From Geomonas limicola (GTDB lineage Bacteria; Desulfobacterota; Desulfuromonadia; Geobacterales; Geobacteraceae), in NCBI RefSeq assembly GCF_014193675.1, contig NZ_BLXZ01000001.1:744001-808000 (forward strand): a DNA stretch of 64,000 bases, in the 5' to 3' direction. This document shows, piece after piece, positions 21,830 through 29,022 of the stretch. Under the pieces are notes generated by a model. That model was given only the letters and a program-made list of their open reading frames with translations, ran no database searches and was not told the DNA's origin. Position numbers and translations under genes: made by a program. Within the stretch, counting starts at the first letter, position 1. Every line of letters begins with the position of its first letter.

Positions 21830-21865
21830 GCCGGCGCCGAAGTTAAAACCGTGATTTTCACCTTG

Positions 21866-21895
21866 AACAAGGGCTATCGACCGGTAGCCCTTGTT
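21866..21895 (+). terminator. Rho-independent terminator of the YqjE-YtxH operon
   Basis: An 11-bp stem (AACAAGGGCTA / TAGCCCTTGTT) with an 8-nt loop, 36 nt after the YtxH stop. The T-run is short. Confidence 0.6.
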
Positions 21896-22041
21896 GCAGT
21901 CACCGTAACAACTCCCCTCGGGCACCTCGGGCCCAAAGTGGCTCACCGTAGCGTTTTCCTTCCTGGTAGTGCATATCTCAATCAAGTTGTGTATACTCCC
22001 GCCACCGCAGGCCGAAATCCCCCCAAAGTACAGGAGACGAC

Positions 22042-22911
22042 ATGAATGTGCGTCCACGCCGCTCCGTTTTATACCTCCCCGGCTCCAATCCCCGTGCCTT
22101 GGAGAAGGCCCGTACCCTCCCTGCCGATACACTCATCCTCGACCTTGAGGATGCTGTTTCACCCGTTTCCAAGGATGCAGCCCGCGCCCAGGTGGTGGAA
22201 GCACTTGCGCTGGGTGGTTTCGGGCAGCGCGAGGTGCTGGTCAGGGTGAACAGCCCGAGCACCTCCTGGGGTGCCGCCGATATTGCTGCCGTGGCACAGG
22301 CGCGGCCGGACGGCATCGTCATCCCCAAGGTGGAGTCCGCCGAGGAGGTGCACAGCGTTACCGCGGCACTGGACCAGGCGGGAGCACCTGCCGAACTACC
22401 CATCTGGGTCACCGCCGAGACACCGCGCGGCATCCTGCGCATCGAAGACATCGCCGGTGCCAGCCACCGCCTCGCCGGCATCATCATGGGGACCTCGGAC
22501 CTTGCCAAAGACCTCAGGGTGCGCCACACCCCGGATCGCTCCGGATTCCTGACGGCCTTAAGCCTTTGCGTCATTGCCGCCCGCGCCCATGGTCTGGAGG
22601 TCCTGGACGGCGTACACCTTGACCTGGCAGACGATGCCGGGTTCGAGGCGGCCTGCAACCAGGGGCGTGACCTCGGCTTCGACGGCAAGACCCTGATCCA
22701 TCCCAAGCAGATCGAGGTGGCGAACCGGGTCTTTGGGCCGAGCGAGGCGGAAATACAGGAAGCCCGCACCATCATCGAGGCCTGGGAAGCGGCACGGCAG
22801 GAAGGTAAAGGGATCACCGTGGTGAACGGCAGGCTCGTCGAGAACCTGCACGTCGAGATAGCCCATCGCACTCTCACGCTCGCTGCGGCCATCGAGGCAC
22901 TGACACCCTAG
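22042..22911 (+). CDS. CitE-like CoA-ester lyase (HpcH/HpaI aldolase fold)
   Basis: A 289-residue protein of the citrate lyase beta-subunit/malyl-CoA lyase family. It opens with 'RRSVLYLPGSNPRALEKA', has metal and substrate motifs 'LILDLEDAVSP', 'VRVNSP', 'GIVIPKVESAEEV' and 'ETPRGIL', and closes with 'GFDGKTLIHPKQIEVANRVF'. Free-standing CitE-like proteins cleave or hydrolyse small acyl-CoA esters such as malyl- or citramalyl-CoA. No citrate-lyase alpha or gamma genes are adjacent, so it is not part of a citrate lyase complex. CAGGAGACG precedes ATG 22042. Confidence 0.85.
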   Translation: MNVRPRRSVLYLPGSNPRALEKARTLPADTLILDLEDAVSPVSKDAARAQVVEALALGGFGQREVLVRVNSPSTSWGAADIAAVAQARPDGIVIPKVESAEEVHSVTAALDQAGAPAELPIWVTAETPRGILRIEDIAGASHRLAGIIMGTSDLAKDLRVRHTPDRSGFLTALSLCVIAARAHGLEVLDGVHLDLADDAGFEAACNQGRDLGFDGKTLIHPKQIEVANRVFGPSEAEIQEARTIIEAWEAARQEGKGITVVNGRLVENLHVEIAHRTLTLAAAIEALTP

Positions 22912-22930
22912 CCGCTCGGGTACCGTAACA

Positions 22931-22973
22931 AAAAAGAGCACCTACCCCGCTGAGGAGTAGGTGCTCTTTTTGT
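22931..22973. terminator. Bidirectional rho-independent terminator
   Basis: A 15-bp stem (AAAAAGAGCACCTAC / GTAGGTGCTCTTTTT) between the convergent CitE-like gene and the hybrid kinase gene, with A- and T-runs at either side. Confidence 0.88.
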
Positions 22974-23001
22974 TGCTGCAGGGACCACGGGAACCCCTGT
23001 G

Positions 23002-24561
23002 TCAGGTGCCCCGGGTACCGGTCATGATGCTCTCGATCTTTGCCGCCAGATCCCTTCTGGAGAACGGCTTCTGCAAAAACTCGACGTCGGGCTCCAGCAC
23101 CCCATGCTGGGCGATGACATTGGCGGTATATCCGGAGATGAACAGCTGCTTCAGATTGGGATAGAGCCCGGCGAGAGTCCGCGCCAGTTCCCGGCCGTTC
23201 ACCTCGGGAAGGACCACGTCGGTGATCAGGAGATCGATCGCGTCGGCATGCTCCTTGGCCATCTCGAGCGCCTTACTGGGCGCATCCGCCGTCAGCACGC
23301 GGTACCCGAGCCCCTCAAGGATCTGGCTGGTGACCATCAGTACCGCTAACTCGTCCTCAACCAGCAAAATGGTCCCTCTGCCCGAAGGTACGCTGGTGAC
23401 CTTCGGATCCTGAGCGGTTTCGATCAACTCCGGAGCGTGGGCCGGCAAGAAGATCGTGAAGATCGTCCCTTTGCCGAGCTCGCTCTGCACGCTGATGAAG
23501 CCGTTATTTTGCTTTACCATCCCGTACACGGTCGACAAGCCGAGCCCGGTCCCCTTGTTGGCATCCTTGGTGGTGAAGAAGGGCTCGAAAATATGGGATA
23601 GCGTCTCGGCGTCCATGCCGCAGCCGTCGTCCCCGACCGCCACCGCGGTATAGCGCCCCGGCAGGAATCCGACGTGGTTGGCGCAAAAGGTCTCATCGAA
23701 CTCTGCCATTTCACTCCGGATGGTGATCGCCCCGTTGCCGTCGATGGCGTCGCGGGCGTTCACGCAGAGGTTCATCAGGACCTGGTCCACCTGCGAGGGG
23801 TCCATGAGCACCAGCGAGAGATCCGACCCGGATTGCCAGGTCAGGTTGACGTCCTCGCCCACCAGTCGGTTCAACATCGGCAGCATGGTGGCTATGCAGT
23901 GGTTCAGGTCCAAAAGTTTCGGGGCGACGACCTGTTTTCTGGCGAAGGCGAGCAACTGCCGGGTCAGGTCGGCGGAGCGCTGGGCGGCCATCATGATCGG
24001 GATCAATTCGTTGTGGATCAGGCTGTCGGGGGGGAGTTTCGCGGCGAGGATCTCGACATGCCCGATGATCACCACCAGCATGTTGTTGAAGTCGTGGGCG
24101 ACACTCCCGGCCAGGCGACCGATCGCTTCCAGTTTCTGGGCCTGGATCAACTGGGCCTGAAGCCGCTCGCGCTCGGCCTCGGCCTCCTTGCGCGAGGTGA
24201 TGTCCTTCAAGCTCAAAACGATCATCGGCTGGCTGTTCTGGTTGTCGATGTTCTTTGCCGAGACGTCCAGGTAGCGCACCCCTTCGTCGCGATGCCTGAA
24301 GCTCACCTCGAATCGGGTTACCGAACCGCTTACCGCCAGGACCTCCTTCAGGTTCTTGCCGGCAGTCGCCTGGTCCGCCTCGTCGAGCAAGTTGAGGAAA
24401 CTGTTAAAGACCACGTCGACGTAGTCATAACGAAACTGGTCGAAAAAGGACTGGTTGGCGTACCGAATCACGAGCGTGGAATCCAGGAAGACCAGGGGAT
24501 CGGCAAAACTCTCGATGATCTCGTAGAAACGGTGGTGGTCGTTGAGAAAGGGCGCTGCCAT
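23002..24561 (-). CDS. Soluble PAS hybrid histidine kinase (PAS-HisKA-HATPase-REC)
   Basis: A 519-residue cytosolic kinase with no membrane segment. An N-terminal PAS domain spans about 10-125. The phospho-acceptor histidine is in 'LAGSVAHDFNNML' at about residue 160. The ATPase domain has 'NLCVNARDAI', 'DDGCGMD' and 'GTGLGLSTVYGMV' (about 265-355). A C-terminal receiver has 'LVEDE' and the phospho-Asp in 'DLLITDVVLPEVNG' (about 395-510). ATG 24561 lies 2 nt from the stop of the RsbQ-like hydrolase, so the two are co-transcribed and likely coupled. The pairing suggests that the PAS domain reads a product or ligand state of the hydrolase. Confidence 0.9.
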   Translation of the reverse strand: MAAPFLNDHHRFYEIIESFADPLVFLDSTLVIRYANQSFFDQFRYDYVDVVFNSFLNLLDEADQATAGKNLKEVLAVSGSVTRFEVSFRHRDEGVRYLDVSAKNIDNQNSQPMIVLSLKDITSRKEAEAERERLQAQLIQAQKLEAIGRLAGSVAHDFNNMLVVIIGHVEILAAKLPPDSLIHNELIPIMMAAQRSADLTRQLLAFARKQVVAPKLLDLNHCIATMLPMLNRLVGEDVNLTWQSGSDLSLVLMDPSQVDQVLMNLCVNARDAIDGNGAITIRSEMAEFDETFCANHVGFLPGRYTAVAVGDDGCGMDAETLSHIFEPFFTTKDANKGTGLGLSTVYGMVKQNNGFISVQSELGKGTIFTIFLPAHAPELIETAQDPKVTSVPSGRGTILLVEDELAVLMVTSQILEGLGYRVLTADAPSKALEMAKEHADAIDLLITDVVLPEVNGRELARTLAGLYPNLKQLFISGYTANVIAQHGVLEPDVEFLQKPFSRRDLAAKIESIMTGTRGT

Positions 24562-24563
24562 GG

Positions 24564-25370
24564 TCAGGACCCGGTTTCCAGGAAAGCGCGGATCGCCTGG
24601 TTCACCTGTTCCGGCGCGCTCAACTGGGGAAGATGGCCCTCGGCGTCCAGCAGAACCAGCCGAGAATCGGGGAGCTTGTCGTGCAGGTAGCGCCCGACTT
24701 GCTCCGGAACGGCAAGATCGTTGTGAGCCTGGAGGATCAAAACAGGGAGCCCGACGTTTTCCAGGTGGGCACGATAGTCGAGTTCAAAGATGGCACGGGC
24801 CACCAATTGGGCAACATCCGGCCGCATCGAGGAGAGCTTCCCGGCAAAGAATTCACCCAGCGAAGGGCAGCCGGGGTTGGCACTGACGGCCTTCCCGAAG
24901 CCGTTGGCCCACTTGAAGTAGTCTGCGGCCATGGAGGAGTAGAGACGGTTCAGTTCGTCACGGCTAAAGCCCCCCAGGTAGTTGTCGGTATTGAGGTAGC
25001 AGGGGGACCCGGCAACGAAGATCATCCGCTCGAACAGTTCGGGCCGGGCCAGGTAGACGGCAACCCCCAGCATGGAGCTGACCGAGTGGCCAACGAATAC
25101 CGTCCGCTGCAGGTTGAGGGCATCGTAGATGGCGAGGATGTTGTCACGATGGAAATCTAAGGAAGAGAAGTTGGCAAGATCGTTGTCTGCGGCATCGTTC
25201 GCGGCACAACCGATGTGGTCGAACAGCACGATCCGGCAGGTCTGCCTGAAGGCAGAGACCTGGTGCTCCCAGACGTGCTGGCTGGCGCCAAAGCCGTGCG
25301 CCAGCACCAGGGTCGTGTCGCCGGAACCGATAACCCGTACATTGAATCTGCCGATAGTAGCTTGGCTCAT
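24564..25370 (-). CDS. RsbQ-like alpha/beta hydrolase
   Basis: A 268-residue alpha/beta hydrolase resembling RsbQ/KAI2/DAD2 proteins. 'LVLAHGFGASQHVWEHQVSAF' near residue 22, 'RIVLFDHIGCA', the nucleophile elbow 'VFVGHSVSSMLGV' (Ser about 95), 'LILQAHNDLAVP' (Asp) and 'LDAEGHLPQLS' (His) complete the triad. In Bacillus, RsbQ acts with the PAS phosphatase RsbP in energy-stress signalling. Here the partner encoded 2 nt downstream is a PAS-containing hybrid kinase. GGGAGGTCC precedes ATG 25370. Confidence 0.88.
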   Translation of the reverse strand: MSQATIGRFNVRVIGSGDTTLVLAHGFGASQHVWEHQVSAFRQTCRIVLFDHIGCAANDAADNDLANFSSLDFHRDNILAIYDALNLQRTVFVGHSVSSMLGVAVYLARPELFERMIFVAGSPCYLNTDNYLGGFSRDELNRLYSSMAADYFKWANGFGKAVSANPGCPSLGEFFAGKLSSMRPDVAQLVARAIFELDYRAHLENVGLPVLILQAHNDLAVPEQVGRYLHDKLPDSRLVLLDAEGHLPQLSAPEQVNQAIRAFLETGS

Positions 25371-25715
25371 GGAATGGACCTCCCACCCGGAAAGGTCATC
25401 TTGCTGAGGTTGGCCACAGTTTAAGACGACGCGGGTCCTCCTATTTTAGAATCAACGCAAGGTTATGCAAGGAGATACCTCTCAAAAACAGTCCAAAAAG
25501 TGCTGATGAGTGGTTAAAAATCGATTTATGCCAGTGGGAAGCAACTTCCACCCAGTGCAGTTAGAGTAACTACATGATCAAAAGCGAATTTTCGGTTACC
25601 GTTGTAGGAATATTACATTGCAGTGATGACACTATGACTGACAACAAAGTACATCACAGTCCCAAAGCCTCTTCCTTCCACGCGGTTTAGGTGAGGAGGG
25701 GAGACCCGGGAGGCG
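25371..25715. other. Intergenic region upstream of the RsbQ-like gene
   Basis: A 345-nt gap, less GC-rich than the neighbouring genes, between the hemerythrin stop and the RsbQ-like start. It holds the candidate minus-strand promoter at 25443-25470 and a short imperfect hairpin near 25530-25558. No credible gene is seen. Confidence 0.5.
25443..25470 (-). promoter_or_regulatory. Candidate sigma-70 promoter for the RsbQ-like/kinase operon
   Basis: On the minus strand: TTGCAT (-35), a 16-nt spacer and TAAAAT (-10), giving a leader of roughly 65 nt before ATG 25370. Confidence 0.4.
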
Positions 25716-26180
25716 TCAGGCCACCACCCGTTCCTTTTCCTGATTGCACCGTGCCTGCTGCACCATCGTCTGGTCCTCATGGTAGATGTGCTCGACCATC
25801 CACCGGTAGGTGAGTTTGAGCGTTTGGCTGACCACCGCCAGCGACGCCCCCTCGTGCAGAAACTGCCGATCCAAGGTCTCGAGGCTGGCAAGCAACTGGT
25901 CGTGCTGCCGTTTGTGCGCCTGGTACCCCGGGCAGTTATTCAGACGCTGGAACGTCTCTTCGTCCTCGAAGTGGCTCCGCACGTAGCCGCGCAGAAAACC
26001 GAGCAGCGGTGCCAGTTGCTCTTTCTCGGTCCCCTCAGTGCAGCACAGCAAGAGCTGGTTGATCTTCTCCAGCAACTCCCGATGCTGGCGGTCGATGGCC
26101 ACGTCACCCGTTTCCAGGGACGTTCTCCATTTCGGATTGTGCGACTGCAAACTCACCATAGCGGAACATTTCGTGAACAT
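25716..26180 (-). CDS. Bacteriohemerythrin
   Basis: A 154-residue non-haem di-iron oxygen-binding protein. The ligand pattern is complete: 'DRQHRELLEKI' (first His), 'HFEDEETFQ' (His...Glu), 'HKRQHDQLL' (two His) and 'HIYHEDQ' (final His and Asp). Such single-domain hemerythrins carry or sense oxygen in microaerobic bacteria. The N-terminus starts MFTKCSAMVSLQ; AAGGAGGATGA precedes ATG 26180. It lies between the RsbQ-like pair and the sigma-54 activator, all on the same strand. Confidence 0.9.
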   Translation of the reverse strand: MFTKCSAMVSLQSHNPKWRTSLETGDVAIDRQHRELLEKINQLLLCCTEGTEKEQLAPLLGFLRGYVRSHFEDEETFQRLNNCPGYQAHKRQHDQLLASLETLDRQFLHEGASLAVVSQTLKLTYRWMVEHIYHEDQTMVQQARCNQEKERVVA

Positions 26181-26431
26181 GGGTCATCCTCCTTCGCCTG
26201 GGTGCCTGGTGTCGAGGGGGAGCTCCCGTTGTGCGGTCATCCCCCTGGTTGGATCCTGGGCAAGCAGTATCAAGTTCCGTACCGGCGGGCCTGAGGGGGG
26301 TGCAGATGGCGGGAATGCGGTGCGCGGGCGAGACGAAAAAAGGCGTATAAATGAGGAGTTGAGGAGGGAAAGGACGTTACGGGGCAGGCGGTGCCGGGGC
26401 CAGTGTTCCCCCTGTCCCAGCGGTTAGCGGG

Positions 26432-26478
26432 TGTGGCGTGCCACGGTTTTGTGTGCCGCAGCTGGGGCGCGTGCCACA
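26432..26478. promoter_or_regulatory. Palindrome TGTGGCGTGCCACG and a second half-site
   Basis: TGTGGC-GT-GCCACG at 26432-26445 matches the dyad TGTGGC-N2-GCCACA in 11 of 12 paired positions. A further GTGCCACA half-site is at 26471-26478. Matching dyads lie upstream of the sigma-54 activator at 28315 and 28347. It sits just past the activator's stop codon. Confidence 0.45.
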
Positions 26479-26480
26479 GG

Positions 26481-28148
26481 TCAGTTGAGCCCAAGCTCGT
26501 GCAATTTTCGGTACAGTGTCTTGCGGTCCATCTTCAGCATCCGGGCCGCCTTGGCCTTGTTGCCAGCGGTCGCCTCGAGTGCAGTGCGGATCCGATCTTC
26601 CGGGGAAGTTTCCGGCTCCTGGCGGTACTTGGCAAGATCTCCAGGAAGGTGTTCCGGGAGAACGGTATTTCCGGCGCACATCACCAGGGCATGCTCCAGG
26701 GCGTGCTCGAGTTCGCGCACGTTGCCGGGCCAGCTGTAGTCCCGGAAGATCCGCAGCACCTCGTCCGAAACGCCGGTCACGCTGGTGGAGAGCCGCCCGT
26801 TCAGGGAGTGGATGAAATAGTCGACCAGTTGCAGCACGTCTTCGCTCCGCTCCCGAAGCGGCGGCACCACCAATTCCACCACCTTGAGGCGATAGTAGAG
26901 ATCCTGGCGGAAGCGCCGCTCCTGAACCTCACGGGCCAGGTCCTTGTTGGTGGCGGTGATCACCCGCACCTTCACCCGGATCGGAGTGTCCCCGCCCACC
27001 CGCTCGAATTCCTGCTCCTGCAGGACACGCAAAAGCTTCACCTGCATGGCAGCCGAAATTTCCCCGATCTCGTCCAGAAAGAGGGTCCCGCCGTCGGCCT
27101 TCTCGAAAAGTCCCGCCTTGTCACGGACCGCTCCGGTGAAGGAACCCCGCACGTGTCCGAAGAGCTCGCTTTCCAAAAGGTTCTCCGAAAGTGCCGCACA
27201 GTTCACCTTGACGAGGGGACGTCGCTCCCCCTTGCCGCAGTCGTGCAAGGCCTGGGCAACCAGTTCTTTCCCGGTGCCGTTCTCGCCCATGATGAGCACC
27301 GTCGAAGGGAGTTCGGCCAGGCGCTCGATCATCCGGTAGATGTGCTGCATCGCCGCACTCTTTCCGATGAGGCCCGCAAACGAGGGAAGCGGCGGCTGGC
27401 GTTTCTCCAGTCGAAACAGCGAGGTTTCGTCCCGCACCACCAGGACAGCCCCGCGCACCTGCTGGTTGGCAAGCTTCAGGGGAGCGGCCGATACGCTGAT
27501 ATAGCGTTCATCCTCGTTTCGGCCCCCGTCGCACTTCAGGTAGCGGCCTTCAGCGGCCTTTTTGGTGAAGATCGCGGTTTCCAGGGCGCCCCGGCAGACC
27601 TTGCCGCAAGGAAGCTCGCCAAAGACGCTCCCCTGCGCCGCGCCGGACAACCCGCAGAGCGAGGCAGCGGCCGCATTGTAGTTGACGATGGCGAGGTTCT
27701 CGTCGAAGGAGATGATGGCATCCTGCACGCTGCTGAAGATCGCCTCCAGGTCGCTTTGGTAGCGCTCCACCTCCCGGGTGACCCTGTGGTACTCGAGGGC
27801 CTTGCGCACCACGTGGATGATCCCTTCGCGCAGTACCGGCTTCGAGATATAGTCGAACGCCCCCAGCCGCAGCGCCTCCGAGGCACTCTCGATCATCGGA
27901 GAACCGGTGATCATGACGACCGGGCAGGCATTGGGACGGCATCGGACCTGGCGCAGGATATCGATGCCGGTACCGTCACGGAGGAAGATGTCGGAAATGA
28001 CCAGGTCGTACTCGAAGGCTTCGAGCAGCTTGAGCGCGGTGGGGACATCCCCAGCCGGTGTCACGAAACACCCTTCATCCTGGAGGAATCTGGCCAGACA
28101 GGAACGGATTTCGGGTTCATCGTCTACCAGGAGTATCTCGGGTGTCAT
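26481..28148 (-). CDS. Sigma-54-dependent response regulator (REC-PAS-AAA+-Fis)
   Basis: A 555-residue NtrC-type activator. The receiver (1-120) has phospho-acceptor Asp53 in 'LVISDIFLRDG'. A PAS domain (about 130-245) is rich in Cys ('LCGLSG', 'LPCGKVCRGA', 'YLKCDGG'). The sigma-54 AAA+ domain (about 262-490) has Walker A 'GENGTGKE' and Walker B 'GGTLFLDEIG'. A Fis-type HTH ends the protein ('NKAKAARMLKMDRKTLYRKLHELGL'). The sigma-54 contact loop reads GSFTGA instead of GAFTGA. No dedicated kinase is adjacent; the two hybrid kinases nearby are candidates. Palindromes that could be its own sites flank the gene. Confidence 0.92.
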   Translation of the reverse strand: MTPEILLVDDEPEIRSCLARFLQDEGCFVTPAGDVPTALKLLEAFEYDLVISDIFLRDGTGIDILRQVRCRPNACPVVMITGSPMIESASEALRLGAFDYISKPVLREGIIHVVRKALEYHRVTREVERYQSDLEAIFSSVQDAIISFDENLAIVNYNAAAASLCGLSGAAQGSVFGELPCGKVCRGALETAIFTKKAAEGRYLKCDGGRNEDERYISVSAAPLKLANQQVRGAVLVVRDETSLFRLEKRQPPLPSFAGLIGKSAAMQHIYRMIERLAELPSTVLIMGENGTGKELVAQALHDCGKGERRPLVKVNCAALSENLLESELFGHVRGSFTGAVRDKAGLFEKADGGTLFLDEIGEISAAMQVKLLRVLQEQEFERVGGDTPIRVKVRVITATNKDLAREVQERRFRQDLYYRLKVVELVVPPLRERSEDVLQLVDYFIHSLNGRLSTSVTGVSDEVLRIFRDYSWPGNVRELEHALEHALVMCAGNTVLPEHLPGDLAKYRQEPETSPEDRIRTALEATAGNKAKAARMLKMDRKTLYRKLHELGLN

Positions 28149-28577
28149 GGCACCTCCCCCACCGCAGGGTCCGAAGACTCGGCAGGTTCCCTTCGAGTTG
28201 CAGCGGCAGGTACGTCAAAGTGGGATCTCATCCAGAAATAATGGGCCTGGGACTCATATCGGCAGTATCTGGTTGAGACTTGACTTCCTTTGGCGACTCG
28301 GGCCCAGGTTCCGGTGTGGCGTGCCCCACAGCTGTCCTTCAAATACTGCGGCGTGCCACACCCAACTGTCCCGACAGGCGGCTTTGACAGCTCCAGGGTC
28401 AACCTCCCGGCGCTTACAAACCTTTCAATTTCTTTCAAGAAAACGACCACGGCTGTTTTTAAAGGTGGCGCCGCACCATATTGGACTGCATTTTGTACTG
28501 CTATCGGCAACACGCGGCGCTTGTCGCGGTACCGGCAGAAACATCCCCCGCAGCAAAAAGCACCAGGGAGGTACACC
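28149..28577. other. Divergent control region of the sigma-54 activator
   Basis: A 429-nt region between the divergent activator and a small ORF. It contains the two palindromes at 28315-28360. A weak -24/-12-like match (TGGACT-N5-TTGTA, 28482-28497) faces the small ORF. There are no other genes. Confidence 0.45.
28315..28360. promoter_or_regulatory. Paired palindromes TGTGGCGTGCCCCA and TGCGGCGTGCCACA
   Basis: Two near-copies of the dyad TGTGGC-GT-GCCACA, at 28315-28328 and 28347-28360. Their centres are 32 bp apart, i.e. three helical turns, so dimers would sit on the same face. They are about 170-210 bp upstream of the activator start. Likely an enhancer or operator, inferred. Confidence 0.45.
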
Positions 28578-28829
28578 ATGGTACGCCACTTCGAATCGTT
28601 GGAAGACATGCCGGGCCCCTTCTCCAGGGCCGCCTTTCGAGCCGTGCAGGAAGCACGGGAGCTGCACAGTCTGGCCAAGAGGATGCACGAAGCAGCAACC
28701 TCGCTTACCTCGGGGCTGGCGCCCCTGTCGAACGCGGCTGCACAGCTCGCCTCCCGCCGCAGACCGGTCAGCACCCGGATGCCGACCGCGGTTTTAACAC
28801 CCCTGCCCCGTCCCCTGTCCCGCGGGTGA
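28578..28829 (+). CDS. Small hypothetical protein
   Basis: An 83-residue basic, helical protein (MVRHFESLEDMPGPFSRAAF...) with Ala/Arg-rich helices and a Pro/Arg tail. A GGGAGG site lies 7 nt before ATG 28578. It has no recognisable domain. It may be the target of the palindromes and the weak -24/-12 element upstream, but coding status rests mainly on the ribosome site. Confidence 0.4.
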   Translation: MVRHFESLEDMPGPFSRAAFRAVQEARELHSLAKRMHEAATSLTSGLAPLSNAAAQLASRRRPVSTRMPTAVLTPLPRPLSRG

Positions 28830-29022
28830 CCCACCACGGCGGGCAGCACCACAGGGTGAGCTCAAACGAAAAAGGGCCAGCCTCTCGGCCAACCCTTAAA
28901 CGTGCGAATACCAGGATGTAGGTGCTGCGTAAGATTCCTCACCAGGAAGTACCGCAGGAGCCTCCCACGGTGCTCCTTTGGGCTGTTTCGCGCGGCGCCA
29001 CCGATCGGCCCACCGCCGGGCA

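Follow-up and report, generated by a model that had tools for sequence, protein, structure and literature searches.

In the stretch of Geomonas limicola DNA analysed here (64,000 nts, the window), a gene for an alpha/beta hydrolase of the RsbQ/KAI2/D14 family is directly followed, on the same strand, by one for a hybrid histidine kinase. The features of the pair and of its surroundings are:

24564..25370, reverse strand: alpha/beta hydrolase, RsbQ/KAI2/D14 family, 268 aa, first gene of the pair (open reading frame and profiles)
25083..25085, reverse strand: codon of the predicted nucleophile Ser96, within GHSVS (invariant in alignments)
23002..24561, reverse strand: hybrid histidine kinase, 519 aa, second gene of the pair (open reading frame and Pfam)
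24199..24531, reverse strand: PAS domain, kinase residues 11-121 (Pfam; by profile score not of the RsbP-PAS class)
23932..24120, reverse strand: HisKA phosphoacceptor region, residues 148-210, with His156 (Pfam, below cut-off)
23440..23802, reverse strand: HATPase_c catalytic domain, residues 254-374 (Pfam)
23035..23370, reverse strand: C-terminal receiver (Response_reg), residues 398-509 (Pfam)
22920..22985, no strand assigned: hairpin flanked by A and T runs, likely a two-strand terminator (folding against shuffles)
26481..28148, reverse strand: NtrC-type response regulator, candidate output (receiver, PAS, sigma-54 AAA+ and Fis HTH)
25716-26180, reverse strand: hemerythrin-domain gene, 345 nts upstream of the pair (open reading frame and domain match)
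22042-22911, forward strand: HpcH/HpaI aldolase/citrate lyase family gene, convergent with the pair (family match)

The two genes had been described, from the sequence, as 2 nts apart, and nts 24562-24563 do separate the hydrolase TGA from the kinase ATG. GGGAGG lies immediately 5′ of the hydrolase start. At the kinase start no clear ribosome-binding sequence was found by eye, which fits translational coupling of the kinase; the two genes probably form an operon. A simple hydrophobicity plot gave no membrane-helix-like stretch in either protein (highest 19-residue mean 1.5), and both are therefore taken as cytosolic. The hairpin between the kinase and the convergent lyase gene (−34.1 kcal/mol, z −7.78, with 0 of 200 shuffles as low) is likely a terminator for both strands. 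It is absent from the output of the sigma-70/terminator scan, which also gave nothing useful upstream of the hydrolase, and matches to a sigma-54 pattern in the window (36, against 29.6 expected) are uninformative.

The kinase has its domains in the order PAS, HisKA, HATPase_c, receiver. Though the HisKA match is below cut-off (23.4 bits against 26.9), H156 and the N, G1 and G2 boxes are kept, as are D448 and K498 of the receiver. Relatives of the NtrC-type regulator adjoin a kinase in four of five fetched loci (match to the window kinase over 472-475 columns at 32.6-34.9%), and from its position a link between the kinase and this regulator is plausible.

The hydrolase is rare among relatives of its host. 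At E≤1e-30 it was found in 1 of 48 genomes of the family and 2 of 395 of the phylum, the second of these being G065, where a canonical RsbQ is paired with a kinase whose PAS is of the RsbP class. It is absent from the other genomes of the genus, and no close copy of the exact window pair was seen among the 395. The lyase gene, similarly, was present in 1 of 19 genomes of the genus at E≤1e-60. In a sister genome (G024, L121 5111-5282) the counterpart of window ~21831-29021, with the lyase, kinase, hydrolase, hemerythrin and NtrC genes, is missing. The gap there retains a relic of 23 aa of the lyase (15 of 23 residues identical; 28.1 bits when 400 nts are searched, and 27.3 bits with the gap alone, where 100 mononucleotide shuffles reach 21.9 at most). 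Recent insertion of the block, with G024 as the empty site, was considered and dropped on account of this relic, which makes deletion in G024 likelier.

The hydrolase and its place in the family

The hydrolase matches Abhydrolase_1 of Pfam (E 3.7e-22), while all 25 NCBIfam models listed, of 27, are far below their cut-offs (the best, RutD, 101.1 against 238.5). The catalytic triad of Ser96 (in GHSVS, residues 94-98), Asp218 and His246 is present and invariant in the alignments, and counterparts of RsbQ cavity residues are present as F27, V97, F135 and F195 (the RsbQ residues compared are those named in PMC3183031). By sequence the best solved relative is 7ukb (211.6 bits), whose PDB title describes an ancestral reconstruction of a plant alpha/beta-hydrolase. 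Plant KAI2/D14 structures reach 202.7 bits, at 31-41% identity, and B. subtilis RsbQ (1wom) 198.4 bits, so that the window hydrolase is slightly nearer to the plant-type members than to RsbQ. In contrast, a canonical RsbQ from a plasmid (L026) scores 290.5 bits against RsbQ and no more than 209.6 against plant-type members. The AlphaFold model of the window hydrolase (pLDDT 93.4) aligns with RsbQ at Z 40.6 over 267 residues and with chains of plant KAI2, D14 and DAD2 at Z 36.6-39.6 over nearly the whole length. It shares with the RsbQ/KAI2/D14 family the triad, the named cavity residues and, as modelled, the overall fold. No relative was found in a viral collection scanned with it.

The main tree has 69 hydrolases, 62 from the 101 loci, hand-chosen to thin near-copies, and 7 reference or outgroup rows. 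(An earlier tree lacked 16 near-duplicate loci; the trees for the AU test and a reduced tree additionally lacked L025, L023 and the outgroup.) In the 69-row tree a clade of 44 rows that includes B. subtilis RsbQ has support 100/100 and does not contain the window hydrolase, which groups with hydrolases from two Chloroflexota genomes (96/83 with L029, 97/99 with L030 added; the bootstrap of this tree was not yet settled). In the reduced tree, without the longest rows, the RsbQ clade without the window hydrolase and the group of three each have 100/99. Holding the window hydrolase with the RsbQ clade is not rejected (p-AU 0.268, 13.9 log-likelihood units below the careful tree); against a quick tree, the tree in which it is so held is better by 30.5 units (p 0.905). 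Its branch is long (1.29-1.45). The branches of the outgroup, made up of distant hydrolases, are very long, and so no direction of descent is claimed.

Four plant-type rows, one of them an ancestral reconstruction, form with 10 bacterial rows a group supported at 99/94, outside which the window hydrolase stands; on this tree it is not in the plant KAI2/D14 clade, though it and KAI2/D14 are both on the non-RsbQ side of the reduced tree. The plant rows group with the proteobacterial L094, L097, L099, L100, L101, L103 and L104 together with L105 and L106 (99/94 with L023, 95/85 without it). In each of the first seven a GGDEF protein follows, at −35 to +9 nts, and five of these were checked with Pfam as PAS-GGDEF. 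KAI2 has been suggested to come possibly from horizontal transfer of a bacterial RsbQ (PMC10504578, citing Wang et al. 2022).

Neighbouring sensors and their PAS classes

Adjacency was surveyed in the best 80 of 100 loci found via two conserved peptide patterns in genome contigs, an uneven sample. By RsbP-PAS profile or motif, a sensor is encoded directly downstream of the hydrolase in 74 of these 80 (56 with an RsbP-PAS and 18 others), or in 75 if L078 is counted, where the start of a gene for a GAF-GGDEF-EAL protein overlaps the hydrolase stop. When GGDEF or kinase motifs alone are scored on both sides, as a matched control, they turn up downstream in 40 of the 80 and upstream in 0 of 79 (L072 is too close to the contig end), and upstream of the hydrolase there is no RsbP-PAS match above 50 bits in these 79. 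Hydrolase-sensor adjacency exceeds chance, and the pairing that had been noticed in the window is thus kept among relatives. Those of the best 80 without a sensor neighbour are L091, L092, L105, L106 and L107. Elsewhere, two plasmid loci (L021 and L023) have no such sensor neighbour, a Deinococcus plasmid has the hydrolase after a PAS/GAF/HD protein on the same strand, with 16 nts between the annotated genes (L025 1585-4792), and a Sphingobium plasmid has a hydrolase copy with an in-frame stop (L027 4001-4789), which was excluded from all alignments and trees.

An RsbP-class PAS is present in 73 of the 101 loci scored; by the tree it is in 37 of 42 loci of the RsbQ clade and 0 of 20 outside it, the window included. 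On the RsbP-PAS profile the window kinase scores 13.5 bits against 90.4-174.4 for linked members, which match partly by construction, the profile having been iterated on open reading frames that it later scored. A DIT motif is at kinase residues 120-122, the end of the PAS. By these measures the window PAS is not of the RsbP-PAS class. A sequence search of the PDB with it gave nothing at E≤0.01.

Its relatives were sought among the partners of the closest hydrolases, L029 (52% identity) and L030 (46%), from Anaerolinea and Anaerolineae MAGs of the Chloroflexota and among the best 80 of 100 loci. As in the window, both have a kinase directly downstream; unlike that of the window, these kinases (1381 and 1060 aa) have an extra N-terminal region and several PAS plus GAF domains, with no receiver match. 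Approximately residues 1-135 of the two form a shared region without a Pfam match that is receiver-like by eye. With hhalign the window PAS matches the first PAS of these kinases at 98.1 as a two-row profile (98.1 for L030 alone, 89.0 for L029 alone). A different sensor region, ending in PAS, is common to proteobacterial GGDEF proteins, Polyangium kinases and cyanobacterial GGDEF-EAL proteins (97.2-99.7), and to this the window PAS has no match (hhalign probability 0.4-0.6).

With kinase residues 1-140 as query, the PAS that comes first in the kinase beside the L030 hydrolase (genome G441) scores 58.8 bits, the next best there being 26.9; the best other PAS in the window's own genome has 35.6 bits, and the PAS linked to L029 comes third in its genome, at 27.3 bits after 33.1 and 28.6. 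With residues 1-123, only the window's own copy was found at E≤1e-10 in 195 genomes of the same class. In 400 Chloroflexota genomes this shorter query puts G441 first at 48.6 bits, a modest lead over unlinked PAS domains in G464 (40.9) and G771 (39.3), both outside the set of nine Chloroflexota genomes with the hydrolase. The other eight Chloroflexota hydrolases (L155-L162) are paired with an RsbP-class PAS. A window-type PAS thus co-occurs with the window hydrolase lineage in one distant genome. The kinase core (approximately residues 117-516) has up to 56% identity within the host's own genus, and this resemblance suggests that a hydrolase-PAS unit was joined to a local kinase core.

A probable hydrolase-PAS sensor and its alternatives

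Pairing of an RsbQ-like hydrolase with a PAS protein is itself an established design. Nadezhdin, Brody and Price 2011 (PMC3183031) describe 45 RsbQ-PAS pairs, whose outputs are phosphatases, histidine kinases (three of them with a receiver) or diguanylate cyclases; direct RsbQ-PAS contact was shown in B. subtilis, where earlier work cited there found the triad to be required. The PAS of that module is a distinct sequence without a DIT motif, and in 36 of the 45 pairs a coiled-coil linker of at least 21 residues separates it from the output. Two models were offered, delivery of a product to the PAS or the hydrolase as receptor, and the cue was called mysterious. The main idea of the sequence-only reading, a hydrolase-PAS pair with a hybrid kinase, was already in print in 2011. 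A literature search, mostly outside subscription journals, found no other PAS class reported next to such hydrolases.

The window pair resembles RsbQ-RsbP and the wider module in that the PAS gene comes directly after the hydrolase gene on the same strand, the PAS is N-terminal and the triad is kept; histidine and hybrid kinase outputs are among those reported for the module in PMC3183031. It differs in a PAS that carries DIT and, by profile, is not of the RsbP class. In the tree its hydrolase also falls outside the RsbQ clade, although the AU test does not reject a place within that clade (p-AU 0.268). The proposal that an RsbQ-PAS pairing was kept with its output replaced holds in that hydrolase-sensor pairing is retained across phyla while outputs change; the narrower supposition of an RsbP PAS with only its output swapped is not supported, given the same PAS score and DIT motif and a tree position to which the AU test allows an alternative. 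Very probably, the window pair is a hydrolase-PAS sensor of known design whose PAS class has not been described for it, and the two gene products very probably act jointly in sensing a small molecule. The best reading is of a second variant of the hydrolase-PAS sensor.

More specifically, comparison of the genes points to a bicistronic cytosolic sensor in which the hydrolase signals to the kinase PAS, a variant of the published module, and this we consider likely. A small hydrophobic molecule would be bound, and probably slowly turned over, by the hydrolase, whose occupied state (or product) would be passed by direct contact to the N-terminal PAS of the kinase, which would set autophosphorylation at His156, followed by transfer to the C-terminal receiver. 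By way of a separate Hpt protein, phosphate may then reach a response regulator, for which the NtrC-type activator nearby is a candidate. We favour the hydrolase as the primary receptor, since relatives at 34-52% identity to it have sensor regions of different kinds as partners: RsbP-PAS, the region with a terminal PAS that several phyla share, or one like that of the window. With such unlike partners, a constant receptor with exchangeable acceptors fits better than delivery of a product into one kind of PAS pocket.

PAS domains often hold ligands, and there is a real if lesser chance that the PAS is the sensor, its pocket filled by a ligand that the hydrolase produces or hands over. This is the first of the two models in PMC3183031, and conservation of the triad, with its requirement in B. 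subtilis (earlier work cited there), is in its favour; the wide variation of partner sensor classes beside a conserved hydrolase is an indirect argument against it. It is unlikely that the pair is an ordinary member of the RsbQ/RsbP-PAS module, with nothing beyond the 2011 description and a PAS that has drifted past recognition. Three of the 45 pairs in PMC3183031 have the same gene order, the PAS in first place and a hybrid kinase as output, which agrees with such drift, as do the long branch and the failure to reject placement within the RsbQ clade (p-AU 0.268, or p 0.905 against the quick tree), yet the PAS has 13.5 bits against 90.4-174.4, on a profile iterated on the same open reading frames, and a DIT motif, and the trees separate the RsbQ clade from the window hydrolase (100/100) and group the latter with L029 and L030 (97/99; each 100/99 in the reduced set). 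That the hydrolase is a metabolic esterase or lactonase, with the kinase merely sharing its operon or sensing its product, is improbable: generic alpha/beta hydrolase profiles do match and several relatives lack a sensor neighbour, but the next same-strand genes upstream encode hemerythrin-domain and NtrC-type proteins and no pathway enzymes, the 25 listed NCBIfam models (of 27) are far from their cut-offs, and a downstream sensor is found in 74 of the best 80 of 100 loci with changing outputs.

The pair had been proposed as a bacterial counterpart of KAI2 and DAD2. Like these, the hydrolase has the family fold (Z 36.6-39.6) and triad, and for fold and family the plant-receptor analogy is a fair one; it does not extend to the plant clade, outside which the window hydrolase stands (99/94). 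The partners of plant KAI2/D14 are MAX2 and SMXL proteins, not PAS kinases. A tentative suggestion, for which we would claim only limited confidence, is that further bacterial KAI2/D14-like receptor-hydrolase pairs outside the RsbQ clade drive kinases or diguanylate cyclases via sensors other than RsbP-PAS, and that plant KAI2/D14 descend from such a hydrolase that already signalled its ligand state to another protein. No endogenous KAI2 ligand has been discovered, according to PMC10504578, and a bacterial hydrolase of the KAI2 family coupled to a phosphorylating kinase would offer a simple read-out for ligand searches. Across the partners surveyed, the hydrolase stays constant while the sensor region varies. 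This pattern speaks for the hydrolase as receptor, and it extends the published module, described with one PAS class, to several classes of sensor.
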